DNA of 39,998 nucleotides from a virus: IMG/VR virus record IMGVR_UViG_3300001352_000026, positions 1 to 39,998 of that record; one strand, given 5' to 3'. Under the pieces are notes generated by a model. The model saw only the letters and a program-made list of their open reading frames with translations. It searched no databases and was not told the origin of the DNA. Shown piece after piece: positions 3,137 through 27,400 of this stretch. Position 1 is the first letter of the stretch. Every line of letters starts with the position of its first letter. The translations under genes were made by a program, and so were the position numbers.

Positions 3137-3137
3137 A

Positions 3138-3395
3138 ATGAGTGAACAAAAAGAGAAAATTTACGTAGGAAGTGGAAAGTCAAAGTTCGATGGAGACCAA
3201 GTGGCTGTATCGGTATGTTTAACTGATCTTCCGAAAGAGTTTATTTTTGAGTACAATAACAAAAAGTATGTCAAGCTTATTGTACAGAAAAAGAGAGAGG
3301 CTGACCAGTATGGAAAGACTCACTACGTAGCTATTGACCAGTTCAAACCTGAACAACAAGTAAAAGAAGAGGTAAGCGACGGCCTTGACTTTTAA
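3138..3395 (+). CDS. Small protein with SSB-like acidic C-terminal tip
   Basis: This 85-aa protein is rich in beta-strand and basic residues in the middle (KKYVKLIVQKKREADQYG, then HYVAIDQFKP), and ends in an acidic tail closing with DGLDF. Bacterial and phage ssDNA-binding proteins end in a similar acidic tip with a last Phe that recruits repair partners. Given its place right after an annealing protein and an exonuclease, a role as a minimal ssDNA-binding protein or recombination accessory is a reasonable inference, not shown. Two hairpins with T-runs follow, so it is the last gene of the recombination unit. Confidence 0.65.
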   Translation: MSEQKEKIYVGSGKSKFDGDQVAVSVCLTDLPKEFIFEYNNKKYVKLIVQKKREADQYGKTHYVAIDQFKPEQQVKEEVSDGLDF

Positions 3396-3415
3396 ATTTA
3401 CGGAGCGATAAGACG

Positions 3416-3438
3416 AAGGGGCTTTTGCCCCTTTTCTT
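3416..3438 (+). terminator. Rho-independent terminator ending the recombination unit
   Basis: A perfect 7-bp stem AAGGGGC (3416-3422) / GCCCCTT (3427-3433) with a TTTT loop runs into TTTTC. It lies 21 bp after the stop of the small SSB-like gene. Confidence 0.8.
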
Positions 3439-3449
3439 TGCTTCAAACT

Positions 3450-3468
3450 GTGACGAATGTCACTTTTT
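3450..3468 (+). terminator. Second hairpin with T5 (tandem terminator or operator)
   Basis: GTGAC-GAAT-GTCAC (3450-3463) is a perfect 5-bp palindrome followed by TTTTT. It may back up the terminator just before it. Because it is a short symmetric site at the edge of the AT-rich region, it could instead be a protein-binding operator. Confidence 0.45.
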
Positions 3469-3469
3469 A

Positions 3470-3622
3470 GGGGTTATACTGGACTCTATAATAAAAAAAT
3501 TAAATCAACTATTACTTATCTATATTTTTAACATTATTATTAACATTATCAACATTAAATAATATAAATAGTTAAATATCAGTAAAATAGATAAAGTTAA
3601 AACGACATAAAATCGACATAAA
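3470..3622. other. AT-rich intergenic region with short direct repeats, possible replication origin
   Basis: This is the longest gene-free stretch of the early arm that is not taken up by terminators. It is extremely AT-rich. It holds three copies of AACATTA (3530, 3542, 3551) and two of CGACATAAAA 11 bp apart (3603, 3614), the second running into the ATG of the primase-helicase at 3623. A TATATTTT box (3521-3528) is a weak -7 match. An AT-rich, iteron-like tract directly before a primase/helicase gene is where phage origins are often found. The promoter for that gene must also lie here. Confidence 0.35.
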
Positions 3623-6034
3623 ATGGACATTACAATATTTAAAGACATAAAACAGACATCACAGCCCTTCTATAGAAACATAAATTTAATACTTACAAGG
3701 ATACAGGACGGAGCTTCAAAAGATATAGTAAAAAAGATTAGAGCAGAGAAAGACAAAGAAAACAGAAACATTTTAAAACAAAAATTACCAGCAATTTGTT
3801 TCAGTGGCCTCTTTTCTAAAAGAGCTGACAATGCACTGAAGGAACACAGTGGATTTATCTGCTTAGATTTTGATGGTTACAAATCAAACAGAGATTTGCT
3901 GCAAGAAAAAGAGAGACTATCAAAAGATAAATACGTGTACTCTGTATTTATTTCTCCAAGTGGGAATGGATTAAAGGCACTGGTAAAAATACCACCTATT
4001 CAAGACAACCACAAAAGTTACTTTTTAAGCCTTCAAAATTACTTCGATAGCGAATACTTTGATAAGACCTGTAAAAATGTCTCACGTGTCTGCTATGAGT
4101 CTTATGACCCACTAATTCACATTAATGCACAATCAAGTTTATGGGATAAAATTGAAGAGCAAGAGTACGTAGAAATAAATAAGCACTCAGATATACCTAC
4201 CATCCCTTTAACAGATGAGAACAAGATAGTAGACATACTTGTAAAGTGGTGGACTAAAAAATACCCAATGAATGAAGGACAGAGAAATAACAATGCTTAT
4301 GTTTTGGCTGCAGCTTTTAATGATTTTGGAATTTATCAGTCTTTAGCTGAGTCACAGCTGATGAACTACAGAACAAAAACATTTACAATATCAGAGATTA
4401 AGAGAACTATAGACAGTGCATACTCACAGAAACATAATCACGGAACTAAGTACTATGAAGACGAGGACAAGGTTAACAACGTGAGAATGAAGCTAAAACG
4501 TGGTGTGTCAAAAAAAGATATCAGAGTTGAGCTTGAGAACTCTGATGTTGAAACAACGACAATAGAGAATGTCATATCAAGATTAGACCAAGAAAATGCA
4601 AACAATCAGTTTTGGACTAAAAACGATAAGGGTGTCATAAAAATAGTACACATTCTTTTTAAACAATTTTTAGAAGAAAATGGATTCTTTAAATTTAATC
4701 CTGAAGGCAGTAAAAATTATGTGTTTGTAAAAGTAACAAACAATTTAATAGACCACACTTCAGAAAAAGAAATAAAAGATTTTATTCTTAATTATCTGCT
4801 GGAGGTAGATGACCTGTCTGTTTATAATTATTTTGCTGAACACACACGTTATTTTAGAGAAGAGTTTTTAACTTTACTATCTTCAATAGATGTTTACTTT
4901 ATAGAGGACAACAAAGATACTGCATACTTGTACTACAAAAACGGAGCTGTTAAAGTTAAACATGACTCTGTAACAAGGATTGATTATTTAGACTTAGGAG
5001 GATACGTTTGGAGTGATCATGTAATTGACAGAAATTTTCAACTATGTGATGGAGATGGATGTGACTACCAGCAGTTCATTACTAACATATGTGGTCAGGA
5101 TGAAAGCAGAATAAAATCTATGAAATCTACAATAGGATATCTTCTGCACCAATGGAAAAACTTATCCTACTGTCCAGCTGTCATTTTAAATGATGAGGTT
5201 ATTTCTGATAATCCTGAAGGTGGAACTGGCAAGGGTTTATTTATGAACGCACTAAGCCACATGAAGAAGTTAGTGTTTATAGATGGTAAGTCTTTTAATT
5301 TTGAGAAAAGCTTTGCTTATCAGACTGTTAGTGTTGACACACAGGTTTTATGTTTTGATGATGTTAAAAAGCACTTCGATTTTGAAAGATTGTTTAGTGT
5401 TATAACAGAGGGATTGGTGTTAGAGAAAAAGAATAAAGACGCTATAAAGATACCATTTAGTAAGTCTCCAAAAATTGCTATTACAACTAACTATGCTATC
5501 AAAGGTCAAGGTTCATCTTTTGCCAGGAGAAAGTGGGAGCTGGAATTAGCACAGTACTATACAAAAGATTTAACACCATTAAAAGAATTTGGTAAGCTTA
5601 TGTTTGGAGAGTGGGATGATGAAGAGTGGTGTAAGTTTGATAACTACATGATTGGATGCCTGCAGCAATACATGATGCATGGATTGATTAAATCAAAGTT
5701 TGTAAACTTAAAAATCAGACAGCTTTCTGCTGCAACTTGTCATGAATTTTTAGAGTGGTGTGGGTTGATTGGAACTAACAACATAAATGAAAAGTTAGCT
5801 AAGGGTTACAAGGTTTATAAAAACGATTTGTATTTAGATTTTGTAGAAGACAACCCTGATTTTGCTCCTAAATCTAAAATGACTGTATCAAGAACTAAGT
5901 TTAACAAGTGGTTGGAAGCATACTCAATGTTTAAGTATGACTGTAAGCCTGAAGCTGATAGGGATTCTGTAGGTAGATGGTTACGTTTTAGAACAAAACA
6001 TGAGTTAGAAACTAACGGTAATTTTGATTTTTAA
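3623..6034 (+). CDS. Primase-helicase: VirE_N/BT4734-type primase plus SF3 helicase
   Basis: The 803-aa protein has a two-part layout. Residues about 1-180 resemble the BT4734/VirE N-terminal domain, a divergent archaeo-eukaryotic primase-like fold: FICLDFDGY with D82 and D84, SPSGNGLKALVKI (111-123), and the SRVCYESYDP strand (154-163). About 200-275 looks like a primase C-terminal helical domain (EGQRNNNAYVLAAAF). The C-terminal third is an SF3/D5-type helicase: Walker A EGGTGKG (K537; Gly instead of Ser/Thr after Lys, as in related phage and plasmid proteins), Walker B VLCFDD (D579, D580) and sensor-like IAITTNY. It should prime and unwind phage DNA. The repeat region ends at its start codon, and its stop is one base before the next ATG. 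Confidence 0.85.
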   Translation: MDITIFKDIKQTSQPFYRNINLILTRIQDGASKDIVKKIRAEKDKENRNILKQKLPAICFSGLFSKRADNALKEHSGFICLDFDGYKSNRDLLQEKERLSKDKYVYSVFISPSGNGLKALVKIPPIQDNHKSYFLSLQNYFDSEYFDKTCKNVSRVCYESYDPLIHINAQSSLWDKIEEQEYVEINKHSDIPTIPLTDENKIVDILVKWWTKKYPMNEGQRNNNAYVLAAAFNDFGIYQSLAESQLMNYRTKTFTISEIKRTIDSAYSQKHNHGTKYYEDEDKVNNVRMKLKRGVSKKDIRVELENSDVETTTIENVISRLDQENANNQFWTKNDKGVIKIVHILFKQFLEENGFFKFNPEGSKNYVFVKVTNNLIDHTSEKEIKDFILNYLLEVDDLSVYNYFAEHTRYFREEFLTLLSSIDVYFIEDNKDTAYLYYKNGAVKVKHDSVTRIDYLDLGGYVWSDHVIDRNFQLCDGDGCDYQQFITNICGQDESRIKSMKSTIGYLLHQWKNLSYCPAVILNDEVISDNPEGGTGKGLFMNALSHMKKLVFIDGKSFNFEKSFAYQTVSVDTQVLCFDDVKKHFDFERLFSVITEGLVLEKKNKDAIKIPFSKSPKIAITTNYAIKGQGSSFARRKWELELAQYYTKDLTPLKEFGKLMFGEWDDEEWCKFDNYMIGCLQQYMMHGLIKSKFVNLKIRQLSAATCHEFLEWCGLIGTNNINEKLAKGYKVYKNDLYLDFVEDNPDFAPKSKMTVSRTKFNKWLEAYSMFKYDCKPEADRDSVGRWLRFRTKHELETNGNFDF

Positions 6035-10062: not shown

Positions 10063-13000
10063 TTAATTATACATTTCATCAAGCATTTGTTCTCTTCGCT
10101 CTTTCTGTTGTCTTTTAATTTCTTGTTTTTGACGATACATATCAGAGTTTTTATATTCTTCTTGTAACCTCATTTTCTCTTCATATTGCTCTGGGAAATA
10201 TCTTTCTAATTCTTTGTTAGTTAGCTTTTTACCCTTTGGTTTTCGTGTAGTTTTCTTAGCATCTGCTCGTTCTTCTTTAGAAAGAATTTGATAATCAGAA
10301 AACTGCAAAGCTCTCATTATTAATTCTGTACCAGAAGCTTTTCCGCTTAATATTTCATCTGCATTTTTAACTAAACGATCTAACTGTATTAATGGTAATC
10401 CAGCGTTAGACACATTCCAAAAAGCTTTTTTTATAGCAGCTTCTTTGCCTGCTTTACTTTTTTGAATAGCTTCAGCTGTTCTTTGTTTTCCGTTTTTATC
10501 AAATGGAGTTACATTAAATCTATTAGCTTCGTTTAGTTCTCTAAAAAACTTTAATCCTATTGTTAGTATAGGAACAGCTGATTCATCTTGTCCTGTCCAT
10601 GGTTTAGCAGTTAAGTAATCTCCAAACGCTTCAACAAAACTACCTATAATAAATAACCCATTTAAATTTCCTAAAGCCGCAGCTCTTAGTAATGTTTCTT
10701 CATCTTCCTCTTCCCAAGGAGCTAAAACACCAGGGAGACCAGCTGAAATAAATTGGAATACAACTGGTAAAATAGAATGATACATGGCTAAAGTTTTAAA
10801 ATTTTCCCAATAAGTACCTTTTCCTTCTTTACCGCCACTCTTTATTTTTCTATAAAGATTTCGTGTTGTTGTCATTTCCTTTCTCAAGTATTGTTTTACT
10901 GAAGTCAAAAACATATTTAAACTTCTATTAAAAGCCCCACCTGTTTGGAATTGATCTTTATCTTGTATATCACTTGATTGCTGAGATGTTTTTGTGTCTC
11001 TCTCAAACATTTTTATTGCATAATCAATTACTTCTTGATTAGTTGCTGTAGGATTTTTCTTTCTATACTGGTCTTTGTAAAAAGCATAGTTAGGAACACC
11101 GCCAATAACAATTGCACCTTTATCACCTTGTTTAACTAAATACATTAATACATTAACAATGTCACCCATAGTTTCTGATGGAACTAATGTTTGAACTTTA
11201 CCTGGCGCATAACTTTCTATTGTTCTTAAGATTGATTCACCATATCTATCTTGTATATAAATAGAGTTATCGGTAATTTCTTTCCAGTTAGATTTCATCT
11301 CAGGCAACTTCATAGTTCCATATTTCATCCAATTTCTAAATCCAATACGCACAGCGTAAGCTGGCGCTGAAGTTAACTGTTTAATAAATATTGTTGGATT
11401 AATAGATAATCTACCTATAACAAACGCTGAAGTCACATTATTTATCCAGTCCATTCCATATTCTGATCTAACACCTTTTTTAGATAAAGTATCAATCATT
11501 GTATCAATACTCTTCATAGGACCAATACCATATTGGTTTGTTATAGCTTTTCGTATATCTTGATTAGAAAAAATATTATTTACGTCATTTAAATTTTCAC
11601 CAAAAGCAGCAAAATAATTCATGTCATTAACATAAGTCATTAAAGCGGCCATTTGGTCCATACTTTTTATAGCTTTTTTGTTTTTTAATCTAACTTTTGT
11701 TGAAGCAGGTGAAGCCATACCTTTGTAAGCTCCTTTTTCATTTGATAAAACATCACCACCAACTTCAGAGTCTGTACCTTCTCTATATATACGACCTGCA
11801 TAATGTTCATTCCATGGCATAGTTGTTCTGTATACTTTTTTATACACTTCATTATATCCTTCATATAGTGATGGAAAAAATTCTTCAACTTGCCATTTCA
11901 TTATTTCTTTAACCTCATCGTTTAGTAAGGCTTCCATTTCTTCCATTACTCTCTTATAATCCTTGCCATATTTAGTTTCATACGAAGCCTCATTTGCAGG
12001 GTCTCTGTATTGATTTACTAAATATGCCATTTGATTTTGACTAAGCTCTTCTATTTCTACACCACTTGACATAAGAATACCTGTGGGAGCAGGAATGCTA
12101 TCTTTTTGAGATTTTGATCTCCATTTTTTTGTGCCATAAATCTCTTCAAGTTTTGCATTTATAAGCATAGTCGTAGTCATTTTTCGAGCTTTATAGTCAT
12201 TGGTCGATTCGTCTATTTTAAATGTAACCATCTCTTGGAGTTCACCACCAAATAATTCACCAGGCATTTTACCTATTTTAGACATTAGATTTAATAAATC
12301 ATTATTACCTATAACAAAAGCAACCATTCCCTCTGTCAATTGAGAAAACTTAACCTTAGCTCTATTTATTACTCCCTTTTTTCGTGCAGTAGATATTGCT
12401 TCATAATCTCTAATTATTTGTTCACTATCTGGATTTTTTATTTCTTTTGGATTTGATTTAGACTCTACTTGTAATTCATTGTATTCAGGATTAGGAATAT
12501 ATAAACTTACTTTAGTTCCTGTAATTTCATAAAATGCTTTTTCAAAATTAGAAACATAATGTAAATGTTTAGCTCGTAAAGAAGCTTCCATTTCAGTTTT
12601 ACCTTGATCAACTAAACTGTTTAAATCGTTTATTACATCTTGTAAATCTTGAGTTTTGTCAACTGTAACCTCTGGACTTAATTGTGCATTAAAATAATTT
12701 AAAACCACTCTCAAATCAGCGACATCAGTTCTTTGCTTTTCATTTTGAAATGTTTCAGATTCTATTTTAGATATTCTATTTTCTAATTGTTGAACCATAT
12801 CTTCAACTTCAGTTACATCTGTTTTACTGTTAACATTTCCTATTTCTTTTTTTATGTTTTCTAATCGTACACGTATTTCGTCTGAAACTTTATAACCTTT
12901 TTTTCTACCTGACTGTGTGTCTTGATATTTTCCTTCTAATATTTCGTTAATTTTTTTAGTTAATTCTTTGTTTGTTCTGGTGTTTACAAATTCTAAAACT

Positions 13001-16000
13001 TCTTCTTTTAAATTTTCTATATTTTTTGTATTGGCGTTAGTTACCTTATTAATTAATTTAGTAACCTCTGGTTTCACAAACACAAAACTTGGCAGAGATT
13101 GTCTTATAAAGTTTCTAAGATCTCGTTGTGTAGTTTTTAAATCAGCAGTAGATCTTCCTTTTATCAACTTACGTGCTGCTTTAATCCTTGCATAAGCATC
13201 TCCTTTAGTTATTCCTTTCTCAAATGCGTTCATCATTTGTGAGGTCATTTGAGCTTGCATAGTGCTATATGCACCGTTGTTTGACTCAGCTCTATATTCA
13301 GGTTGACTCTGTAAAAAATCTAATGTTTTGTTATCAATTTCTTGTTGAGTAAATTTGTAAAACTTTTTATTTGTGTTTTTGGCTTTTTGTTGAATAACAG
13401 CTATTTCTTGCTGTAATTTTTTTATTTTATTTTCAATTTTTTCTGATTTTTTTGCATCAAATAAATCTCCTTGAGAAAGATTAGCTTTCTGCTCATCAAT
13501 TTTTTCATTGAGTTTTGATATTTTTTTACCAGTTGGAGTTAAGTTATTGTCTAATAAATTTTTTCTGAATTCATATATTTTATTAAACACTTTGACACCA
13601 GCTGTCATTCCTCCTGATATGTTTCCAAAAACAGTGGGTACGTTTTTAAGAACAAAATTACTTACCTTCATTAAAGGTTTTATGTCTCTCATCAGAAGAC
13701 CTGTTTTTCTTTTTAGATAATCAACAATAGTATTGTCTTTAATATTATTTTCTCTACCTATTTTTATAATATCAATTGGACTTTTATTTTCTCTTCCTAT
13801 TTCACCCATTGATTGTTGTTTTCTAACACCAGCTCTTGGGTTAAAAAATCTTGGTTTACCATTTTGAGTAACACCATCAGAAAAATAATATCCAGCAACT
13901 TGACCTTTTTTATACCCTTCTTTATATATAGCTCTTTCTACTCTTAAACCTAATCTTCTTGCTGATCTTTGTAGTTCACCAAGAGGTATAGTGTTTGGCA
14001 TAAACCCTTTAAGATTCATTTTAAAAAGCAAACCTAACTTTTCTGCATCCGACTTTTGTTTTCTTACACTTGGAGCCTCTACTTTACTTTCTGATTCAAT
14101 AGAAACTTCTGTTTCAGGAGATATTACTTCACCAGCAACCACACTTACGTTTCTTACAGCGTAAGGTTTTCCAGACTTCTGTACTAAAACTTCTCCTCCT
14201 GGTTGTCTGTTTTTAAATAAATGTAGTACAGGCTTTGACCCATCTTTTAATGAAATATGAAATGGATAGCTTGGATGAGAATCTTCATTAACTTCAACCT
14301 CACTATTTATTTCTATTGCAGCGTATACATCGCCTACATTTAAACCTTTAGTTAGTTTTTCAGCAGCAACTTTAGCAATTAAATCTACAAGAGATTGTGA
14401 ACCTGGCCCTTTGACTCCTTTTTTAGTGTTACCTACACCAACATTTTTATTTACATCACCACCTAAAAATTCAGCTATAGCAGCTTGACTTTCTTTTGGT
14501 AAATTTTTAGCTATTTCTCCAACAATATCTTTCACTACAAAACCTCTTTTTTCAAAAGTACTTGTGTTAGGGTTTGTAAAATATTTTTTAATATCTGTTT
14601 TTAAATCTTTAGCACTTTGTCTTAAATTAATTTTTCCTTGAGCTTTTTTAACAGCTATAGATACTGCTGATCTAAACATTGAAGGACTAATTAAATTATT
14701 ATCTAACATGGTGTTTAGTATTGCTAATGTTGAATTAACACCTGAAGCACTACTTACTAATTTAGCATCTGTTCCTTTAGTTAAAACTAAATATGCCTTG
14801 CCTCCATTGTTTTCTAACTGTTTATTTAAACTATTCTTTATAGTATTTGCAGTTCCTACTTTTCCAGAAGCCCACACATCTCCAAACTTAGTAACAAAAA
14901 ATACTCCTCCTTCTCCTTCAAATATAACTTTATTATTATATTTAATTTCCCCAGCTAACATATCATCAGGAGCTGTAATGGTAACCTCTTGACCTTGCAT
15001 AAAAGATATATCTTGAGGCTGAGTAATTAATCCAGCTTTCATCATATCTGCAATACTCTCTTGTTGAGTATAAGTAACTTCAAAACCACCTACTGATTTT
15101 CTTGCTAAAGCATCAGCTGGATTTTCAACTTTTTTACCTCCTTTAAAATCATCTATTACTTTAAGATCTCCTTCAGTAATTTGTTCTCCAGTTTTAGTTT
15201 TTCGAGCAATAGTATTTAGCAACTCTACAACATCTGCTTCCGACTGACCTATTTCAATACCAAGTCCAGCGGCAATCTTTTCAACCCATTTTCTCACAAC
15301 TGATTTAGAACTAACATCTAATGACGTATAGTTGTCAGCAATCATTCCTACAATTTCAGATAAATTTTCTTCGTTTTGTATTTCAGAATCGTAGTTTTTA
15401 ATGAATTTTTTTAGTTCAGTCCTTGTGGCTTTATCTAAAGTTTTAGAACGTGATAATGCTTGAACCATTTTTTTTGTAACAACTTGTGCTACCTTATCAT
15501 TCATTTTTAACTTATTCAATAATACAGCATGGAATATTTCATGAGCAACAGTCCTACCGTTAGCTTTGGATAAATTAATATGAATTGTATTATCCTTTGG
15601 CTGGTACATTCCATTATCATTATCAGCATCTATTTTACGATACTGTTCGTTGTCTCTATGTACTACAATTTTTAAGTTAGGAAATATTTTTGATATTGCT
15701 TTTGCAGCATTTTTTGCTTGTTTTAAAACTTGATTAGAAAACTTATTCTCTTGCTCTGTTTTTCCTTTTTTAGTAAAAGACAGGTTTGGACCTTCTTCAT
15801 TTACTTGAATATCAACATCAACACCTTTGTCATTAGATACTGTTTGTTTTCTACCTGGAAGGTTATCTATATCTGATTCAACTTTAGACTCTGGATCAAC
15901 TAAAGCTTCAAAATCAGAGGCCTCATTAGGATCTATTTCCTCCTCGGTCTTCTCCCTGTTTTGAGTTTCGGTTTCGGTTTGGCTCTGTTGGGTAGGCTGG

Positions 16001-18807
16001 CTGTCGGGTACTCTTTGTCCCACCTCTTCGCTACTTCTGGAAGATTCTTGTGCATCCAGGCTCTCTGTGCTTTGCTTTTGTAAGGCATCTTGTTCGGTTT
16101 TAATTTGTTCTGGTGTAGGGTTTTCTATTCCCTGTTCTTTCAACGAAACAGCAGCATCTTCCTCTGTAATTATTTTCTCTTCATCTTCAACTCTACCTAA
16201 GTTTGGACTTTCAGTAGCTGCCAACGCATCTCTTCCTATATTCTCAAGAGTTGTATTGATATCGTCTATTTTGTCCTGAATTGATTTAACAGACGATGGG
16301 TCTTTACCAGCAATACTTTGCTCTAATTTTTGTTTATTTAATAAAAGACCTAAAGCTATTTTCTTTTGATCTGTTGTATAGTCACTTGGTATTTGATTAT
16401 AAACTCCTTTTAGTTCGTTAAATATATCTTGCTGTTCTTTAGCTTGTTTAACTGTTAGTTCTCCGCTATTTATTTTGTTTTTTAACTGAACATCTATTAG
16501 CTTAGTAGAAGTGCCGTCTCCAACCATATCTTCAAAAACCTCAAAGACACCATTATCTAATCTCGTAAAGTCTTTTGAAGCTGCTGCGTTTGACATGGCT
16601 CCTGGGACACTCATTATCCATCCACCAACCATTTCTTGTGCGCCAGCTTTTAATACTTGATTAAAGCCTTCTCTAAATGATTCAGGAGTTTGAAACATAT
16701 TAGCGTCTTTAATATTATTATATATAGCTTTAGCAGATATGTCTGCTATTTCTTGTGCTGCACCTGTTTCAAATTCAGCTACACCACCAGCTGCAATAGT
16801 AAGAACACCACGTGATATCATGTTGTCAACCTCTTGTCTTACAACGTCTTGAAAACCTCTTCCTTGTACTTGCCTTAAACCTTTGTATTTACCTAAAGCC
16901 TTTAAAAGAACTTTATTCATTAAACCTTTTTGTTTAACAACATTTCTCAATCCTACTGATTCGAGAACTGCAACTACTGTCCCTAATGGTAATGCAATAG
17001 CTAATTTTTCTTTTTCTGAAATATTTTCAAAATCAGGATCATTAAACATTTCTTCATTTAAATGATCACTGACCTGCATAAACATAGCAGTTGTTCTTTG
17101 CGCCCATCCAGCTGGACCTGCAGCTCCTGCCATTGCTGGCAAAGATTCCATTAAACCTAAATATGCGCCACCCCAAAATCCTTCTTTCATTAAATCGCTA
17201 TATTCAGTTGTAGTGGAAGCTGAACCTAAAACCTCTTCTGGAGCTGTTCTTAAAGTTTTTACTATAGACCCTGAACTTACATCACTAATATTAGTTGCCA
17301 TTGCAGTATCAGAATAACGACCTCCACCTGCAAGTTCTTTAATTTTAGCACCTCCATCTTCTTGCCATTCATATATGTCAAATTTAGCTTGTTTTGCAAG
17401 TATATCTCTGGTTTTAGTATCTACTTCTTTTTGTTGCTCTTCAGTTAAAGACATTTTATATCCATCAAATTCATCTCCTTCAATTCTATCTAACTGTTTT
17501 CTTATACCAAACATTTTTAATGCAGTGTCTTGATAAAGTCTATTGAATGCTTTTTCACCAGCACCTCCATATTCTCCACCAAATGCGGCTGCATCAACAA
17601 TGTAACTATAAGCACCAGATAATTGTCGACCAACACCATTCCAAATATTATCTAAAGTTGCACCAGAAAGCTGACCTCTTTTAGCCTGCATTTCTGTATA
17701 CCTACCCATTGTTTGGTCTAAAGTATAGCCTTGAGTTTTTAAGTCATTATCACGAGCTATTATCCTTGCTCTTTCTTTGTTGTTTTGAGATCTTGCTGCT
17801 ATATAATTATTGTACAGTTCTCGTGTACCTGGTTGGTTTAATTGTTCTTGAGTTAAGTTATTAAATTGAGCGCCTTCTACATCTAAAGAATTTTTTGCTT
17901 GTAGCCACGACTGGACTTGTTTGTTAAATAAATTTGCTTGTGTATTTAATACAGAAACTGAAGCATCAATATCTTCTCTGTCAAATATTTTTCTTTCTAA
18001 ATCACTATATCCGTTCTCTAATAAACTTAATCTTCTGCTGTCTGCTTTATTTTTTTCTAAAAAAGCCTGTAAAGCCGTTCCTTCTTCTGCATCATTTGAA
18101 CTAAAAAAATTATCTAAATCAACGTATAGACTTTCACCATTTGCTGACGTAACATTCATTCCATCACCCATCATATCAGTAGGTTCAAAATTAAAACCAT
18201 ACTGATTAAAATGATAATTTAATAAAGGCACTGCTTGTTCTTCAGATCCGCTAATCAAATCTTGATTAACAGCTCGCATTGAGTTTGTAAAAGGATCTTC
18301 AGTTTGTTGATTTATTTTATTATTAGCATCGACAAATTCATTAAATTTATCTTCAGAAACTTCTTGATTATTAATTGAAGATTCTGTTGTTATTTGGTTT
18401 GCAATAGTTGCTTGTGCTAAAGCAGACTCTTCTGGAGCTAAAGGTTCATCAACCTCTGGCTGATTAGTACCATTTTGAGGATTCTCGTTGTTTAATGGAT
18501 TTGTGTTGGTATTTAATTGTGAAGAATCCGAATCGCCATCGTTCTGTTCTGATTCCATAGCTTCCTCCACCCCAGCAGAAAGCTGGTCTTGTAAATCGAC
18601 TTTTTTTTTTACTTTAACTTTTTCAGACCAAACATCTAAAGGTTCTCTTTCAGTAAAAGTTTTATCTACACCAGTTAACCACGAATACATTTCTAACGCA
18701 AAATCATCCTCTTGCATGTTATTTTGAAAATCATCAAAAGTATATCTTCCAGAATAAGCATAATTTGTATCAAGCCAGCTATATAATTCTACTAAATATT
18801 CATTCAT
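10063..18807 (-). CDS. Giant virion polyprotein (2914 aa), putative gp16-like ejection protein with zincin motif
   Basis: One uninterrupted 8.7-kb frame, no frameshift. Visible parts: N-terminus with LYSWLDTNYAYSGRYTFDDF; Ala/Gly-rich hydrophobic stretches about residues 540-570 and 670-760; a Glu/Gln-rich low-complexity linker about 860-980; a metalloprotease-like segment with HEIFH (H1089, E1090, H1093) and a candidate third ligand E1151 in ENLSEIV; coiled coils about 1760-1815 and 1940-2150; a helical C-terminal region about 2170-2740 resembling the polyvalent-protein-associated regions of giant phage proteins, with IGRLSINPTIFIKQ and SQQSSDIQD; hydrophobic segments about 2680-2732; a highly charged tail. 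It follows gp14-like and gp15-like genes, the place of T7 gp16, so I infer it is packaged and ejected into the host. No transglycosylase or RNA polymerase motif was seen. Confidence 0.85.
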   Translation of the reverse strand: MNEYLVELYSWLDTNYAYSGRYTFDDFQNNMQEDDFALEMYSWLTGVDKTFTEREPLDVWSEKVKVKKKVDLQDQLSAGVEEAMESEQNDGDSDSSQLNTNTNPLNNENPQNGTNQPEVDEPLAPEESALAQATIANQITTESSINNQEVSEDKFNEFVDANNKINQQTEDPFTNSMRAVNQDLISGSEEQAVPLLNYHFNQYGFNFEPTDMMGDGMNVTSANGESLYVDLDNFFSSNDAEEGTALQAFLEKNKADSRRLSLLENGYSDLERKIFDREDIDASVSVLNTQANLFNKQVQSWLQAKNSLDVEGAQFNNLTQEQLNQPGTRELYNNYIAARSQNNKERARIIARDNDLKTQGYTLDQTMGRYTEMQAKRGQLSGATLDNIWNGVGRQLSGAYSYIVDAAAFGGEYGGAGEKAFNRLYQDTALKMFGIRKQLDRIEGDEFDGYKMSLTEEQQKEVDTKTRDILAKQAKFDIYEWQEDGGAKIKELAGGGRYSDTAMATNISDVSSGSIVKTLRTAPEEVLGSASTTTEYSDLMKEGFWGGAYLGLMESLPAMAGAAGPAGWAQRTTAMFMQVSDHLNEEMFNDPDFENISEKEKLAIALPLGTVVAVLESVGLRNVVKQKGLMNKVLLKALGKYKGLRQVQGRGFQDVVRQEVDNMISRGVLTIAAGGVAEFETGAAQEIADISAKAIYNNIKDANMFQTPESFREGFNQVLKAGAQEMVGGWIMSVPGAMSNAAASKDFTRLDNGVFEVFEDMVGDGTSTKLIDVQLKNKINSGELTVKQAKEQQDIFNELKGVYNQIPSDYTTDQKKIALGLLLNKQKLEQSIAGKDPSSVKSIQDKIDDINTTLENIGRDALAATESPNLGRVEDEEKIITEEDAAVSLKEQGIENPTPEQIKTEQDALQKQSTESLDAQESSRSSEEVGQRVPDSQPTQQSQTETETQNREKTEEEIDPNEASDFEALVDPESKVESDIDNLPGRKQTVSNDKGVDVDIQVNEEGPNLSFTKKGKTEQENKFSNQVLKQAKNAAKAISKIFPNLKIVVHRDNEQYRKIDADNDNGMYQPKDNTIHINLSKANGRTVAHEIFHAVLLNKLKMNDKVAQVVTKKMVQALSRSKTLDKATRTELKKFIKNYDSEIQNEENLSEIVGMIADNYTSLDVSSKSVVRKWVEKIAAGLGIEIGQSEADVVELLNTIARKTKTGEQITEGDLKVIDDFKGGKKVENPADALARKSVGGFEVTYTQQESIADMMKAGLITQPQDISFMQGQEVTITAPDDMLAGEIKYNNKVIFEGEGGVFFVTKFGDVWASGKVGTANTIKNSLNKQLENNGGKAYLVLTKGTDAKLVSSASGVNSTLAILNTMLDNNLISPSMFRSAVSIAVKKAQGKINLRQSAKDLKTDIKKYFTNPNTSTFEKRGFVVKDIVGEIAKNLPKESQAAIAEFLGGDVNKNVGVGNTKKGVKGPGSQSLVDLIAKVAAEKLTKGLNVGDVYAAIEINSEVEVNEDSHPSYPFHISLKDGSKPVLHLFKNRQPGGEVLVQKSGKPYAVRNVSVVAGEVISPETEVSIESESKVEAPSVRKQKSDAEKLGLLFKMNLKGFMPNTIPLGELQRSARRLGLRVERAIYKEGYKKGQVAGYYFSDGVTQNGKPRFFNPRAGVRKQQSMGEIGRENKSPIDIIKIGRENNIKDNTIVDYLKRKTGLLMRDIKPLMKVSNFVLKNVPTVFGNISGGMTAGVKVFNKIYEFRKNLLDNNLTPTGKKISKLNEKIDEQKANLSQGDLFDAKKSEKIENKIKKLQQEIAVIQQKAKNTNKKFYKFTQQEIDNKTLDFLQSQPEYRAESNNGAYSTMQAQMTSQMMNAFEKGITKGDAYARIKAARKLIKGRSTADLKTTQRDLRNFIRQSLPSFVFVKPEVTKLINKVTNANTKNIENLKEEVLEFVNTRTNKELTKKINEILEGKYQDTQSGRKKGYKVSDEIRVRLENIKKEIGNVNSKTDVTEVEDMVQQLENRISKIESETFQNEKQRTDVADLRVVLNYFNAQLSPEVTVDKTQDLQDVINDLNSLVDQGKTEMEASLRAKHLHYVSNFEKAFYEITGTKVSLYIPNPEYNELQVESKSNPKEIKNPDSEQIIRDYEAISTARKKGVINRAKVKFSQLTEGMVAFVIGNNDLLNLMSKIGKMPGELFGGELQEMVTFKIDESTNDYKARKMTTTMLINAKLEEIYGTKKWRSKSQKDSIPAPTGILMSSGVEIEELSQNQMAYLVNQYRDPANEASYETKYGKDYKRVMEEMEALLNDEVKEIMKWQVEEFFPSLYEGYNEVYKKVYRTTMPWNEHYAGRIYREGTDSEVGGDVLSNEKGAYKGMASPASTKVRLKNKKAIKSMDQMAALMTYVNDMNYFAAFGENLNDVNNIFSNQDIRKAITNQYGIGPMKSIDTMIDTLSKKGVRSEYGMDWINNVTSAFVIGRLSINPTIFIKQLTSAPAYAVRIGFRNWMKYGTMKLPEMKSNWKEITDNSIYIQDRYGESILRTIESYAPGKVQTLVPSETMGDIVNVLMYLVKQGDKGAIVIGGVPNYAFYKDQYRKKNPTATNQEVIDYAIKMFERDTKTSQQSSDIQDKDQFQTGGAFNRSLNMFLTSVKQYLRKEMTTTRNLYRKIKSGGKEGKGTYWENFKTLAMYHSILPVVFQFISAGLPGVLAPWEEEDEETLLRAAALGNLNGLFIIGSFVEAFGDYLTAKPWTGQDESAVPILTIGLKFFRELNEANRFNVTPFDKNGKQRTAEAIQKSKAGKEAAIKKAFWNVSNAGLPLIQLDRLVKNADEILSGKASGTELIMRALQFSDYQILSKEERADAKKTTRKPKGKKLTNKELERYFPEQYEEKMRLQEEYKNSDMYRQKQEIKRQQKERREQMLDEMYN
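15529..15543 (-). other. Codons of HEIFH zinc-protease motif inside the giant protein
   Basis: The five codons encode H-E-I-F-H at residues 1089-1093, preceded by a strand (NTIHINLSKA) and ARG/VAHE-type helix start. This is the usual strand-helix arrangement of zincins. A Glu suitable as third ligand stands 58-62 residues later (E1147/E1151). Confidence 0.7.
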
Positions 18808-18808
18808 C

Positions 18809-21076
18809 TTATCCTATTTTTTTAAATTGTACATCTACCTTTCCATAATCTACATGAAGATAATCTCCTACTGGTACAGCTGCCCATGGTACTTCTTGCG
18901 CCATAACACCTGTGAAAACACCTTTTTCATAAACTCCTTCTTTATAAGTCCAGCTGTAAATATTTATTCCACTGTTAGATTTTCCTATTAAATTAATATT
19001 TTCTTTTAATCTAATATCTGATGGCGGTAAACCTCCAGTATTGGTTGAGCCTGCATTTTTAGTATTATATGCGTTTATAATTTTATTTATTTCTGCATCT
19101 ACTTCACTTTGTAGTAAGGTGTTATCAGCATCATACCTGAAAGTTTTACTTACGTTTTGATTTGTAGATGGATCCTTGTATTGTACTATAATATCATTTG
19201 TTGCTCCAGACGTATCGTTTGTAGATACTGTAACTCCTAATGAAGAACCAAAGTTTCTTTCCAGTTTTTCCAGTCCTTTTGTAAATGCTTTTTTAACAAC
19301 TGGAGCTGCCTTTAAGAAATTATCAGTTTCATCTGGTATAGCTGCAAATTCAGAATTCATTGTAGTTGTCATAGTTGAATCAACAAAAGCATTATCTGAG
19401 TTATAAGTATTTATAGGCTGGAAGTTTCTTGTTGTTCCAAATTCTTCATCACCTTTCCATAAAGGATTTGCTGCTCCATTTATAAATCTTGGTGTCCATT
19501 TATTATTAGGATCAGACTGAACTAACTCATCAAACGACATGTTTCTAACAACCTCTCTTGGAAGTATTTCTCTATATAATTTTTTTGCAATAATCTCAGT
19601 CTCTAAAGGTTTAGTTGTATCTATCTGACCATTGGTTTTACCATACTTATCTATAGTTTCTGTTACAGTTCGACCACTAATTTCTTTAGTAATAATAATT
19701 GTTGGTCCAGTTCTATCAATAGAAATAATTTTAGTATTTCTGTCAGTAGCATTGTTAGAATTTAAAAACTGCTGATTCATGTCTGTTATTCTATCTTCAG
19801 CAACCATAGTTGCGTCTTGACCAGTCACAGTAATAATGTCATTTATATCATTAAAATACCCTTTTCTTTGTCTCTTTAAATTATTGTTTCCAATAGTTGT
19901 GCCTGTCGCTTGTTGTTCTTGTTGACCAGAAAAACCTTGAGACATTTTTTCTATATGATTAACCTGCGACTCAACAGCTATATCAGCAAGCCTACGAGCT
20001 TGTGTTATTTGAGCAGCAGTCATTTCAGGAACTGGTTGTCCTGAACTCATATCTACTTTAATCATTTTATCAAGACTTACTTTTGGATATTTTTCTTTAA
20101 ATTGACTTTCTGTTTCTGCAAAGAAAAAATTACCTGAGTTAGTTAAAACTTGAGCAGCATTCATGTTGTCCGATTCTCCAGGCGCTCCAACCATAGCATC
20201 TATTTGTGCTACTTTCCACATATCATAAGTTAATGGGTCTCCGTTTAAGTCCTTACCAAAATCTCCTAAATTCCTAAAATCTTCCACAGAAGTAACTTGA
20301 CCTCCTCCATTTAATACAGAATATTTATTAGCTTTATCAACAGCAGATTTTATAATATCTGCTATCTGAGCAGTTTGAGCAGTTGCCAAATTATCAACAT
20401 CAACTCTATCTTGCTCAAACTTCATAAAGTTCATTATCTGATTAGGATTCTGATAGTCTTGTTTTCTTTTTTCGTAATCAGGCATTACATCATACAAGCC
20501 AGTTTTTGAATTCTTACCCATTGTTACTAACTGCATTTTACCATTAGTAGGGTTAGACCATAGTTTTTTATTTCTTAAATTACCTAAAGCTTCAACAGAT
20601 AAATTTGAAAATATTTCCAGCTCAGAAGCTGTTGCACCTCCATCTTTTGCAGCTTGTAATCTTTCTTTTGCTTTAACAGCCCAGTCATCCCATCCTTTTA
20701 CAGCTGTACTTAAACTTGAATAGCCATTTTTTTGTTGCTGCATATACAGCTTATAATCTGAAGGACTAATTAAACCACGCTTTAATAAATTGTTTTGTTC
20801 TTGTATACCTTTTACAGACATACTTGAACCGTTTATCAGTAAAGATGCAGCATCTTGAGTTCCAGTCTCTGGAACCTTGCTTAACTGTTCTATGGCGTTT
20901 TGAGTAGATTCTTCAATCGCAGCTTTACGAGCAGCTCTATCTGCCTGTATGGTTTGCAGTCCAGTCACTAATTCTTTGGACGCTGCGTTCCAGTCCATTT
21001 GAGTGCTATCTACACTTCTTTGAGCATATATAGAATATTTATTTGCCCCTGAAGGTCTTGATGTATCTTCCGCCAT
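18809..21076 (-). CDS. Putative internal virion protein (gp15-like) with C-terminal S74 chaperone domain
   Basis: The 755-aa length is close to T7 gp15 (747), and it lies between gp14-like and giant gp16-like genes. Residues 1-680 are mostly helical, Gln/Asn/Lys-rich, with many short repeated helices and no named domain. The last 70 residues are clearly a Peptidase_S74/intramolecular chaperone (ICA) type domain: SDIRLKENI (S686, D687, R689, K691), then GINIYSWTYKE, then GVFTGVMAQEV and a closing HVDYGKVDV. In tail spikes this domain trimerises the protein and cuts itself off just before the Ser-Asp. Its presence on a core-protein-like chain is odd, so the alternative is that this is a tail fibre/spike component. 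The stop is one base before the ATG of the giant gene. Confidence 0.8.
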   Translation of the reverse strand: MAEDTSRPSGANKYSIYAQRSVDSTQMDWNAASKELVTGLQTIQADRAARKAAIEESTQNAIEQLSKVPETGTQDAASLLINGSSMSVKGIQEQNNLLKRGLISPSDYKLYMQQQKNGYSSLSTAVKGWDDWAVKAKERLQAAKDGGATASELEIFSNLSVEALGNLRNKKLWSNPTNGKMQLVTMGKNSKTGLYDVMPDYEKRKQDYQNPNQIMNFMKFEQDRVDVDNLATAQTAQIADIIKSAVDKANKYSVLNGGGQVTSVEDFRNLGDFGKDLNGDPLTYDMWKVAQIDAMVGAPGESDNMNAAQVLTNSGNFFFAETESQFKEKYPKVSLDKMIKVDMSSGQPVPEMTAAQITQARRLADIAVESQVNHIEKMSQGFSGQQEQQATGTTIGNNNLKRQRKGYFNDINDIITVTGQDATMVAEDRITDMNQQFLNSNNATDRNTKIISIDRTGPTIIITKEISGRTVTETIDKYGKTNGQIDTTKPLETEIIAKKLYREILPREVVRNMSFDELVQSDPNNKWTPRFINGAANPLWKGDEEFGTTRNFQPINTYNSDNAFVDSTMTTTMNSEFAAIPDETDNFLKAAPVVKKAFTKGLEKLERNFGSSLGVTVSTNDTSGATNDIIVQYKDPSTNQNVSKTFRYDADNTLLQSEVDAEINKIINAYNTKNAGSTNTGGLPPSDIRLKENINLIGKSNSGINIYSWTYKEGVYEKGVFTGVMAQEVPWAAVPVGDYLHVDYGKVDVQFKKIG

Positions 21077-21081
21077 ATCTT

Positions 21082-21945
21082 TTATCTGTTTAAAATGTCA
21101 TAAAAAGCTTGATCATATATGCCAGTTTTTCTATACCCTTTTAATTGCTCAGGCGAAAACCTTCCATCTTGTAATCTTGCTATAACTTGATTTCTTCCTA
21201 AAGGTTGAGTTACAGTTGGAGCAAATAACGCCGCTTTGTTCATGTCGTAATTTGCGCTTTTTGGATCTGAAAGATCTGCATAAGTTTTCATCCCCTCAGC
21301 TGTTGTACCTGGTTGGTTTACAGATGTTGTTTTTAATAAAGATTGATCTAAACCATCTGCCATTTTAGAAGCTCGTCTGTCTGCTGCACCTTGAGGAAAT
21401 AATGAAACCATACCTGCAGCACCTTGCACTGCTTGCCCAACTGACGCAACGCCTTGCTGCATTGCTGCTGCTGAAGCTTCTTCAGAATCTCTTGATATTT
21501 GTTGTTGATCTGCTGCTGCCCCAACTTTAAAATCTTTTAAGTCTTGATTAATATCAGACTGTTCTTGAACTTGCATTTTTTGTAAATCAAATAATTCTTT
21601 ACCAAACGCAATACGTGAGTTTTCAGCTGACTCAGTAGCACCTGCTCCAACAATACCAACTCCTGCTGCTAAGTTACGAGAATCACCTTCCTGAAGTGCT
21701 TGTATGTTTTGTTGTTGACCTTGTATAATTTGACGCTCTTCTCTTCCATAAGCATCTAAAGGTACATTTAACTTTTGCATGAACTCAACTTCGGCCTTAC
21801 GCTCTGCCTCTTTCATTAATTCTTTACTTGCTTTCTGTGCTTTTTCACCTTGCTTTCTTGCTTTTGCTGCTTGAGAAAAACTCATACCAGCAGAAGTGGC
21901 ACTAATTAAAACCCCTGTTGCTGCTATTGCTGTTGCTGCTGCCAT
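21082..21945 (-). CDS. Putative internal virion protein (gp14-like)
   Basis: The 287-aa protein starts with an Ala/Gly/Ser hydrophobic segment (about residues 2-22, AAATAIAATGVLISATSAGM) followed by a long Ala/Gln/Glu/Lys helix (SQAAKARKQGEKAQKASKEL and on). Another Ala/Gly-rich stretch lies near 165-185, with a small folded C-terminus. This is the pattern of podovirus gp14-type internal core proteins, which leave the virion first and form an outer-membrane pore. There is no sequence signature beyond composition and order, but gene order (gp14-like, gp15-like, gp16-like) and sizes support it. Five bp separate it from the next gene. Confidence 0.65.
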   Translation of the reverse strand: MAAATAIAATGVLISATSAGMSFSQAAKARKQGEKAQKASKELMKEAERKAEVEFMQKLNVPLDAYGREERQIIQGQQQNIQALQEGDSRNLAAGVGIVGAGATESAENSRIAFGKELFDLQKMQVQEQSDINQDLKDFKVGAAADQQQISRDSEEASAAAMQQGVASVGQAVQGAAGMVSLFPQGAADRRASKMADGLDQSLLKTTSVNQPGTTAEGMKTYADLSDPKSANYDMNKAALFAPTVTQPLGRNQVIARLQDGRFSPEQLKGYRKTGIYDQAFYDILNR

Positions 21946-21946
21946 A

Positions 21947-22354
21947 CTATATTTTTTTTATTATTTCATGAGACACTTTTGTATCTACGTTATACCCTAA
22001 TTTTTTGTGAGTATCTATTAAATGTTTATTTCTACCAATACTGAATATATATTTTTTGCCATTAGCCTTTATGTATTCTTCACATGTTAAAATTAAAAAC
22101 TCAATAGCATCCTGCCTGTCGTCATCTCTATAAGAAGGATTAGAAACAATCCACTCTAATAAAACTCCCTTAGAGTTTGTAAAATACATAAATCCCGCAA
22201 CAATAGGAGTGCCATCTTTCTCTACCATCAAACCGCCTGTGCCATTATCTGGTAAAAAATCTTTTGGAGGATTTTGCCAATCTGGCCACTCATCCCACCA
22301 AGACACTAATGTGTCCCAATCCTTTTCTTCAAGCTTTCGTATATTAAATTCCAT
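21947..22354 (-). CDS. GNAT-fold acetyltransferase-like protein
   Basis: The 135-aa product has the elements of a small GNAT domain: beta1 FNIRKLEEKDWDTL, strands GGLMVEKDGTPIVAGFMYFT and GVLLEWIVSNPSYRDDDRQD (the V-x-P region and acetyl-CoA-loop position, though the classic R/Q-x-x-G-x-G/A loop is not intact), helix AIEFLILTCEEYI and the closing THKKLGYNVDTKV. Similar genes occur within tail gene clusters of marine T7-like podoviruses, where their target is unknown. A promoter-like box lies 17 bp upstream of the ATG, so it heads the ejection-protein transcript. Whether it is catalytic is uncertain because of the altered loop. Confidence 0.72.
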   Translation of the reverse strand: MEFNIRKLEEKDWDTLVSWWDEWPDWQNPPKDFLPDNGTGGLMVEKDGTPIVAGFMYFTNSKGVLLEWIVSNPSYRDDDRQDAIEFLILTCEEYIKANGKKYIFSIGRNKHLIDTHKKLGYNVDTKVSHEIIKKI

Positions 22355-24494: not shown

Positions 24495-27400
24495 TTATGG
24501 GCATGTAGTTACCGCAGTAACTAAGCCAAATTGATTAACTGTTATATAATCTGTTGCACTTACCTTATATAGTCCTACTCCTAAATTACTACCAACTGCA
24601 CCATCTGATGCATAATATACAAAATCTCCATATGCTGGCAAAGTTCCGCTACCTGAATGATAGTATGTAGCATTTAATGGTTGGTTACAAACGTTTGCTT
24701 CTACGGTAAACACAGTACTACTTGGGTAAGCGGTGTATGTAAACGCACAGTCACAGCATGCTGATGCAGCTGAACTTGCGTCATAACAAAACTCTTGACA
24801 GCTAACTAATCTGTAATCATATATTAAATACAAATATTGATTTGCAGTAGGTAATGACAAACTACTAATAGTTGTTTGATACAGGCCTGCAGATGGATTG
24901 GTTACCGAACTGTCTGGCACTGTAGTTGCAGCTGCTAACAACGACGCTATATCAGCCTGGTTATTAGAGTATAAGGTATTGCTTGATAAATATTTAAAAT
25001 TATCGTTAGGATAATTCCAGTCATATGTATCAAAATTAATCTTATTAGATCTGATTGTTAAATCAATACCATCATATGGAAAAACTCCTAAAGATCTTAC
25101 TCCAACTTGTGTGTCATAGTAAGATGCTGTTAAATTATCATTACCAAACTCTGCTAAATCTGAATCTACTGGACTAATATTTACACTATCCTCCCAAAAA
25201 TATTCAGCATGAATAAATTCTCCACTTTCATTTGGAGAGTTCATAACTACTTTTACAACCGTTATAGACTCTGATTCAACACAGTTAGCTGTTACAACAA
25301 ACGATGCTGTTGATACAGCTGTGATCGTTACTTCTGCATTAGAAGGACTGTTTAAAGTTTTATCAAATGTAAATGTTCCAGAACCTGTTAGCGTTGAACT
25401 TGTTGTTGTTGTTCCATTCCATAGTACAGAAATAATTATTGAACCAGCAGTAACGTTATAATTAAATCCTGCTGTACCAATTAATAATCCATAATTTATA
25501 TTACTAACAATTGCATTAGACGCCCCAACAGCTAAATTATTTCTTTGTAGTTTATATCCACATTGATAAATCTCTGGTGGTAAAGGAACTTCGTTACAAT
25601 TCATTCCTAAAACATATTCATCCATATAAGGATCATATCCTCCTAATTTCTGCGTTTGTATTGAGTTATGAAATTCATCTCTAAACCACGACCTCATTCC
25701 CATATCAGAAATTACTTCTAAAGAATCGTTGTTTCTGCTTGTACCTCTTAATTTTAACACAGCACTTCTTTTTACGTCAGTAAAAAACATATCATAACCA
25801 TGAGAAACAAAACTTTCTGGGTTATAACTAATACCATATTCTTCAATACGTGCAATTTGAGTTCCTAATATCTCAGGAATAGATGCAATAACACCCCCAC
25901 CTGTACTGTCACTTATTAAGTTTTTACTTGACAAAACATAAGTAATTCTATCTTCTTGTAAAACTAATATGTCAGTTTCTCTTGGATGCATTTTTTGTAT
26001 AGGACCAAAAGATGTTTCACAATCTTTAAAGTTTACTAAACCTAAATTAAATTCATTTAAGTTATTAACACCACTATTGCTACTATAGATTCCACTGTAT
26101 GTTATACCTTCAAATCTATCAGCTTCTTTAAAATCTTGATTAGATACAGCTAATGTTCTTTGACCTAATTGAAAAGGTCTTCCAGCTAACTGATCTTTTA
26201 TTTTAAAACTTTCAACACCATTTCCAAAAGTATAACAATCTATAAAATTTAAATTTATTACAGCATCTTGTGAAGCAGTTTGATTTTGGTCTCCTAAATC
26301 TGAATTAGTTCCAGACATATGAAATCCATCAGGTTGAGATATAGGAAAAGATTGAGATGCATCATAATATAATTCAGCATTTGCATCGTTTGGTTCTGTT
26401 TCAAAAACCATTAATGTGTTTGCTCTAAAAACTATAAGCTCAACTTCTAAATCAGAAGTTCTGTCAGGATTAAAAGGTCTATTACACCCTTTTACTCCAG
26501 ATGAAACGCCTAAGTATAAGGGGTCATTAACACCTTGACTACTATTTTGTATCCATTGAAATGTTACAGCCCAAGTTGTACACGCCATATTATTTGCAAC
26601 ACTGTTACCACTAAAGTATGGAGTTGCTAAAGTAGTATCATTTATTATATCTGTTTCTGCTGAGATATTTCCAGGTAATCCAAGTGATGGGTTTATATTA
26701 TCTCCAACCCACCATCTTCTCATGTCAACATAATCTCTACTTGCAATATATTCTTGCTCCCACTTCCACTCTCTTTCTTCACAGCTATTTCCATTAAATG
26801 TATCATTACGAAACATTCTTACTTCTATTCTAATAACTGAACCTCCTGGAACTTCATAGTTTGTAGTGACACCTGTATCAGGATCTGTAGTAAAACATTT
26901 ATAACCAATTTTTCTGGCATTTGTACATCCTCTTACAGCACTCCTTTTTATTATCTGTCCAAACTCAATAATAGAATCCTCTGGAATAACAATGTCAAAA
27001 TTTTGATTTTTAATTAACATGTAAAGACCTTTAAGCTGAAAAGAGTCTTCACCATATTCATTTACGTCATTTAAAAAATTAGATGGCTCTGCACTTATTT
27101 CTAAAACCTCACATTTTTCTACTCTTGTTAAAGCACCACTAACGTCAGCCTTAACCACAAGAGTTTGTCCTTTTTGAACTTTGTTTGCGTTGTCACCTTC
27201 AAGCCTAAAAAACACCATATTATCACTTGGCCTAATATAATAAAAGTTAGAAAAAATAGTTTCATAACCTCCCTTACTCGGCTTCACTACAAACTTATAT
27301 CGTTCTGCCCAATAAGGCGCCCTTGAAGATATAGCTACTTGTATACTATTTGCTGTAACACTATTACCAGGCTCTACATAAACAGTATTATACTCAGAAA

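Follow-up and report, generated by a model that had tools for sequence, protein, structure and literature searches.

The window analysed here, a stretch of viral DNA of 39,998 nt, carried a virion operon on its minus strand, running from terminase, portal, capsid-type and tail proteins to a GNAT-like, a gp14-like and a gp15-like gene and ending in a giant gene (Table 1). The giant formed one uninterrupted frame from an ATG start, as a preliminary description of this DNA had stated without giving the strand, and its share of the window, put there at over one fifth, was measured at 22%. The encoded protein has a mass of 327 kDa. The GNAT assignment of the 135-aa gene was made by eye and from the annotation of MW202828. 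An A9 run was present in the coding strand of TerL (window 39273-39281, ~codon 75-77, SKKKEEQ).

Table 1. Features of the virion operon and of the giant gene (window coordinates; aa numbering of the giant protein unless a gene length is given).
Feature	Position	Strand	Description	Basis or remark
Terminase	37254-39503	-		
Portal	34822-37257	-		
Major capsid-type protein	32141-33601	-		
Large PHROG virion protein	24495-29282	-		
Stand-alone GNAT-like gene	21947-22354	-	135 aa	kept at the same place across the family
gp14-like gene	21082-21945	-	287 aa	
gp15-like gene	18809-21076	-	755 aa	S74-type C-terminal domain
Giant virion/cargo gene	10063-18807	-	2914 aa, ATG start, one frame	full-length relatives, dN/dS
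N-terminal tag	18613-18807	-	aa 1-65	~30-aa motif present as two related copies, YSWL...FDDF / YSWL...LDVW
A10 run (T10 on the plus strand)	18601-18610	-	codons 66-69, GTA-AAA-AAA-AAA-GTC	proposed slippage/frameshift site, tag-exchange junction
Putative -1-frame tail	18464-18600	-	...KKKSRFTRPAFCWGGGSYGIRTERWRFGFFTIKYQHKSIKQRESSKWY, stop codon 18464-18466	read after +1A slippage or -1 frameshift
Hydrophobic segment	16948-17004	-	aa 602-620, within a mostly helical region (aa ~565-960)	hydropathy, model
Zincin-type metallopeptidase domain	15166-15855	-	aa ~985-1214 (~230 aa)	
HEIFH active-site motif	15529-15543	-	aa 1089-1093	64/64 aligned relatives
Payload in swappable slot	14128-15063	-	aa ~1249-1560	YTH-like fold candidate
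Conserved C-terminal region, predicted all-helical	10066-13800	-	aa ~1670-2914	

Full-length relatives of the giant without internal stops were found in viral contigs and in cultured phages, and relatives were 66-99% identical over the matched length. Comparison with a relative of 87% amino-acid identity gave a dN/dS of 0.15 over 2914 codons. Given this ratio and the uninterrupted relatives the ORF is coding; the gene is under purifying selection, and we have very high confidence in it as a coding gene in a gp16-type slot. T7 gp16 has 1318 aa. The giant, described earlier as several times that length, is indeed larger, but only ~2.2-fold, and its size is ordinary within its own family, in which 72 non-redundant full-length relatives had a median of 2975 aa (range 1691-3859). 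Searches with the whole protein against Pfam, PHROGs and PDB sequences gave nothing useful: no Pfam domain was matched in the window's own giant, the PDB sequence search returned no relative with E < 0.1, and weak matches to DUF1664 and fibrinogen were dismissed as coiled-coil noise. Neither an RNA polymerase motif nor a transglycosylase signature had been seen in the giant before. We likewise obtained no Pfam polymerase match, and DxDxD-like strings were not conserved even in close relatives; for the transglycosylase the statement holds as far as sequence can tell.

In most of ~60 loci the order was a ~134-aa GNAT-like gene, gp14-like gene, gp15-like gene, giant and strand switch, with a gap upstream of the giant of usually 3-30 nt. 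Immediately before gp14, the ~134-aa GNAT-like gene was present in almost all loci of this family. The giant was the last gene of the virion operon also in Elemovirus (3694 aa), MW202828 (3859 aa), Gundel_1 (2482 aa), phi13:2 (1990 aa), Panino (1829 aa) and phi38:1 (1691 aa), and ~110 further loci came from viral contigs searched with the peptidase and C-terminal parts. Hosts of the related phages were Flavobacterium, Tenacibaculum, Cellulophaga and Maribacter. In cultured relatives the proteins encoded in this slot carry structural annotations, and one of them, phi18:3 gp123, is annotated as a virion structural protein from experimental MS/MS. The sequence link between phi18:3 and the window is indirect and runs through phi13:2, which matches Gundel in one part, and Gundel, which matches the window in another. 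The preliminary description had the giant following gp14-like and gp15-like genes, which do directly precede it, and regarded it as most likely packaged and ejected cargo in the gp16 slot. The conserved gene order and the MS/MS record of gp123 support this. The window giant is very probably a virion protein, while the packaging and ejection of this particular protein are inferred. The C-terminal end of the gp15-like protein (given as window 20700-21076) carried an S74-type (endosialidase chaperone) domain, which is unusual for an ejection protein; it was found in the closest relatives of the window and was absent from L008, L018 and L020.

Six residues in the peptidase region (H1089, E1090, H1093, E1146, E1147 and G1207) were invariant in all 64 aligned relatives. 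Together they include a zinc-ligand pattern, HExxH with the downstream glutamates E1146 and E1147, either of which could be the third ligand. The first half of HExxH belonged to one of the search patterns; H1093, the glutamates and the glycine did not. HExxH was also present in all 26 full-length giants that had been fetched by the C-terminal block alone (chance ~0.008 per protein). Collagenase and M30 peptidase domains aligned to the model of the peptidase region with Z 5.3-5.6. A Foldseek search of the peptidase-payload model (mean pLDDT 67.5) against the PDB gave no match below E 0.001, with E ~0.2 for the zincin fold, an assignment that is tentative at the level of structure. We are confident that the giant contains an active metallopeptidase, cleavage itself being inferred, and the protease-like part of the preliminary description can be identified with this conserved HExxH domain. 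A second HExxH (HE[ILV]QH) was seen 560-900 aa past the first, in the payload region, in L041, L052, L054, L061, L062, L073 and L092. DUF6782 or M78-type peptidases were among the payload matches of relatives.

Pairs of giants with 70-98% identical flanks differed by whole non-homologous segments. The left edge of the exchanged cassette lay 125-144 aa past HExxH, where the peptidase domain ends, in 14 of 18 near-relative pairs representing six lineages. The right edge kept a constant distance from the C-terminus within each clade. Payload domains in relatives included ART-PolyVal (3e-17), Kinase-PolyVal (3e-32) and DNA methylase (5e-20), as well as GNAT, LPD23 and additional metallopeptidases. 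In L071 an ART domain occupied a ~290-aa insert (~aa 1707-1995) that was missing in relatives 82-86% identical to it. We have little doubt that the payload slot is exchangeable. L018 and L020 were 95-100% identical to the window in their ring, nozzle-type, fibre-type and GNAT genes and 96-100% identical in the first 200 aa of gp15, whereas the end of gp15 was ~25% identical and their giants only ~33% identical to that of the window. L018, L020 and L113, all 95-100% identical to the window in tail genes, differed from it by a switch that started inside gp15 (~aa 200-400) and took in the rest of that gene together with the entire giant.

The payload of the window is common to Elemovirus, and payloads of this type, recognised by two motifs, made up 25 of 63. 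Their conserved residues were W1312 (GDVWAS; the same 25 of 63 payloads) and HPSY (1511-1514). No Pfam domain was matched by the window's peptidase or payload. When the payload model was compared with known structures, the best 17 matches were all YTH domains (Z 6.1-7.9, 10% identity, rmsd ~3.4 A over 115-138 residues), and a Z of 7.9 is at a level that can be reached by chance. No VIA match besides YTH stood out, which says nothing about other families. A YTH-like payload is a tentative, model-based lead and not an identification.

The long helical parts reported previously were recovered as predicted helical regions in the models. Residues 1670-2800 were predicted to be all-helical (mean pLDDT 74.9, 26 sequences), and the predicted C-terminal fold matched the corresponding regions of viral proteins that bear the name polyvalent, ART-PolyVal or LPD. 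The hydrophobic parts also had a counterpart in hydropathy, in the segment listed in Table 1 and in a second stretch within the C-terminal region (aa 2678-2697); both are candidates for membrane contact. What the preliminary description missed was the normal family size, the conserved zincin-type domain, the payload slot, and the A10 run with its second frame.

Runs of at least nine A's were concentrated near the 5′ end of the giant genes. Of these runs, 63 fell within the first 360 nt across the 72 genes, against four in the remaining 621 kb, a ~380-fold enrichment, and four in 330 kb of upstream late genes. The longest run was exactly A10 in 58 of the 72 genes; runs of 7-8 A's were absent at the site. 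With phi13:2, Panino and L029 included, where it is located just upstream of the annotated body frame, the run was present near codons 15-75 in 65 genes and missing in 7, and in 62 it was in frame. Since the run occurred in all three codon phases (46, 8 and 4 genes), it is the run itself that is kept and not the peptide. At the site KKK was encoded as AAA-AAA-AAA in 52 of 54 cases, compared with 2 of 196 elsewhere. KKK as a conserved peptide signal was dropped, as in genes without KKK the A10 persists in another codon phase.

A10 was found in four Elemovirus genomes and in Calle_1. Five isolates (phi13:2, phi18:3, phi19:3, phi46:3 and Panino) had A9, with tag and body frames that differ exactly at the run and are joined only if one A is added; a homopolymer sequencing error cannot be excluded for them. 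L029 had A12, and its tag and body were also out of frame. In public annotations of PP540027 (Panino), phi13:2, 18:3, 19:3 and 46:3 the giant is broken at the A-run: the body is given a start other than ATG, and the part before it is called as a small ORF or not called at all. The N-termini of a clade lacking A10 (L061, L052, L055 and L068) carried a six-threonine run (SRTTTTTT). No run of at least nine A's was seen in the stretch of crAss001 that was read.

The tag before the run had a median length of 60 aa. The two motif copies in the window tag were weakly alike (P 0.07), and a tandem duplication was significant in 37 of 52 relatives (direct-repeat test, P<=0.01). Tags were unrelated between relatives with near-identical bodies, homology beginning at the run; such exchanges were found among L042/L091/L088/L081/L092, in L060/L099 and between phi13:2 and phi18:3. 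There were some clear co-swaps of tag and gp15 tail, with FVPPSDAV tags and with LPSPSDVL tags. Docking of the tag on the C-terminal tail of gp15 is not claimed, the all-pair correlation being weak (Spearman 0.11, partial 0.09).

One A added by slippage and a -1 shift of the ribosome lead to the same frame, and in the window the predicted product of tag plus -1-frame tail would have 114 aa and 13.9 kDa. The -1 frame stayed open for a mean of 35.4 codons, compared with 5.6 after synonymous randomisation, in which the in-frame peptide was kept and codons were redrawn from the gene's own usage; openness was individually significant (P<0.05) in 82% of 62 genes. Among 32 diverse genes, pairwise similarity in the -1 frame was 31.9 against 20.7 +/- 0.3 for randomised sequences, and thus exceeded even that of the in-frame peptide (26.9), while similarity in the other alternative frame rose less (26.9 vs 22.6 randomised). 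The signal in the -1A (+1) frame, to which the small ORFs annotated in phi13:2 and its relatives (phrog_24532) belong, was much weaker (28.5 vs 12.9 codons, P<0.05 in 23% of genes). Tail profiles built from half of the lineages recovered 40 of 96 held-out tails, against 3 of 960 after randomisation, and a six-frame search of all fetched DNA gave matches to the tail profile nowhere but at the 5′ end of giants. Codon-position rates were flattened in the tail stretch (0.142/0.158/0.188 vs 0.229/0.184/0.364 further on), and -1-frame synonymous substitutions accounted for 29% there and 16% further on (disjoint pairs, Fisher P 7e-6). Related sequences and lineages are not independent, and the P values are overstated.

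The -1-frame tail was cationic, aromatic and glycine-rich (consensus KKKRxfxxyxsrgxyGIxyxxsxgryFfGyrr; median net charge +9, 22% aromatic). The core of this motif was present in L089 without any A-run, so part of it may follow from the in-frame DGS-type motif. On these comparative data we think that the -1 frame is quite probably under selection. With less assurance, we lean towards expression of the small product by transcriptional slippage, where both expression and mechanism are inferred. The small product was not found in phi18:3: there the giant was detected, yet the ORF of the tag (gp122) is listed as 'hypothetical'. Among the open papers searched there was none on such slippage in phages, which is weak evidence.

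The tail could also be reached by -1 ribosomal frameshifting on A-AAA-AAA/G in place of transcriptional slippage. The better conserved alternative frame is indeed the one to which this common bacterial slippery heptamer leads, and the A9 isolates hold A-AAA-AAG in the tag frame. Seven A's would however suffice for a ribosome, and yet runs of 7-8 are absent and ten strongly preferred. The search for a stimulatory RNA structure near the run gave nothing clear (mean z -0.34 downstream, -0.50 upstream). Ten A's equal the length of the RNA-DNA hybrid of RNA polymerase (9-10 bp, PMC5009743), and bacterial RNA polymerase slips efficiently on nine A's or T's, with ~50% altered product in Thermus dnaX (PMC5009743). 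Ribosomal frameshifting is thus unlikely, but it remains a possibility to be kept in mind.

We find it improbable that the A10 has no decoding role and is merely a recombination joint for tag exchange, the -1 frame being open because of the composition of the in-frame linker; the giant would still be polyvalent cargo. Such a joint would fit unrelated tags with homology starting exactly at the run, the recurrence of in-frame linker motifs such as ESD-DGS, and the -1-frame motif of L089. It does not explain why synonymous randomisation, which leaves the in-frame peptide intact, destroys both openness and similarity of the -1 frame, nor the flattened codon-position rates and the relative enrichment of -1-frame synonymous changes, and it has no need for exactly ten A's.

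A different doubt concerns the metallopeptidase, which might act during assembly, as a protease for virion (prohead) maturation, making the giant a structural or scaffold protein and not delivered cargo. There is a precedent in DdrB of phage P1, a polyvalent protein that is processed before packaging (PMC5512222). The swappable neighbours of the peptidase are however effector-type enzymes (ART, kinase, methylase, GNAT) and not assembly factors, and the shorter same-slot proteins of phi38:1, phi13:2 and Panino lack HExxH altogether, which leaves this explanation rather doubtful. Finally, a DNA-level phase-variation (contingency) switch turning the giant on and off in the phage population, as might be read from the out-of-frame A12 of L029 and A9 of the five isolates, is very unlikely in view of the 58 genes with exactly A10 and the 62 in frame, the identical A10 in four Elemovirus species and in Calle_1 and phi38:1, and a conserved -1-frame tail for which it offers no reason.

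We suggest that the giant is likely to be the third of the ejection proteins in a short-tailed phage of Bacteroidota, in the position of T7 gp16 and the N4/DEV virion RNA polymerase, and by its architecture a member of the polyvalent class, combining a peptidase, a payload and A10 slippage; no experiment has been done on this phage. It would be packaged with the gp14-like and gp15-like proteins and would enter the host early in infection; storage in the head and ejection are proposed by analogy with gp73, gp72 and gp71 of DEV. The peptidase (aa 985-1214) may cut itself or the payload free, or may act on a host target. Release of the payload is suggested because the peptidase adjoins an exchangeable effector, as proposed for polyvalent proteins (PMC5512222). 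The C-terminal helical half presumably carries the protein. At the A10, RNA polymerase (or the ribosome) would slip, and a ~100-aa protein of tag and -1-frame tail would also be made. Its co-production with the giant is expected because RNA polymerase slips efficiently on runs of this kind. The small protein may plausibly set its ratio to the giant cargo during assembly; that it could compete for tag docking sites and so limit the copies of the giant is a guess. We also incline, by a small measure, to the wider proposal of a large and ecologically widespread group of Bacteroidota podoviruses in which programmed A10 slippage behind an exchangeable tag yields a giant injected polyvalent protein and a small protein with its tail in a hidden, selected -1 frame, the pair setting the number of giants per virion.

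On this proposal an anonymous giant ORF becomes a delivery system open to testing, in which a conserved protease is combined with interchangeable payloads, and the payloads could be read as a catalogue of what phages send into Bacteroidota. A decoding signal with a hidden conserved frame would extend across a phage group in which annotation pipelines miss or split it (phi13:2, Panino). Both claims can be checked directly, as the pairs Flavobacterium BAL314/Elemovirus, Cellulophaga/phi38:1 and Cellulophaga/phi18:3 are available in culture.

Among the closest known systems are the polyvalent proteins of phages and conjugative elements (Iyer et al. 2017, PMC5512222). As in these, a giant multidomain protein lies beside late virion genes, the window giant has a zincin-like metallopeptidase (a common, not obligatory, hub domain), the exchangeable ART-PolyVal, Kinase-PolyVal, LPD23, GNAT and methylase domains occur in its relatives, and its C-terminal fold matches annotated polyvalent proteins. 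Disparate activities in one polypeptide are found in the near relatives; the window itself has a clear peptidase and, as payload, only a fold candidate. Unlike in that account, there is a fixed order of peptidase then payload, a sharp swap boundary, an A10 and a -1-frame tail; the main text of PMC5512222 makes no mention of frameshift or slippage. The virion RNA polymerases of N4 and DEV (Schitoviridae; PMC10925440) are likewise third ejection proteins of ~3000-3400 aa beside gp14- and gp15-like proteins. DEV gp73, gp72 and the giant gp71 are the equivalents of T7 gp14, gp15 and gp16 (PMC10925440), and the N4 enzyme also contains a metallopeptidase domain (PMC5512222). In the window giant, in contrast, no RNA polymerase signature was found, and the payloads vary between near-identical phages.

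The gene neighbourhood is of the same type as that of the cargo proteins gp45-gp50 of PhiCrAss001, also a Bacteroidota podovirus, whose large helical cargo is stored in capsid and tail (PMC10172136). The outgroup in that study was phi13:2, a relative of the window phage. The crAss cargo differs in including RNA polymerase subunits of up to 277 kDa (PMC10172136). The giant last genes of Elemovirus, Gundelvirus, Callevirus, Baltivirus and Panino share the slot and the conserved A9-A10 run, with partial homology to the window in Elemovirus (aa 994-1541, 31%) and Gundel (aa 2291-2696, 24%), but they differ in length (1691-3694 aa), tags and payloads. For the run itself, the nearest parallels are the slippage sites of Thermus thermophilus dnaX and Shigella spa13 (PMC5009743), where an in-frame homopolymer of at least 9 likewise gives a long product and short out-of-frame ones. 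The run of the window differs from these in its position, close to the 5′ end within a phage gene of ~9 kb, and in its alternative frame, which does not end quickly but encodes a conserved tail.
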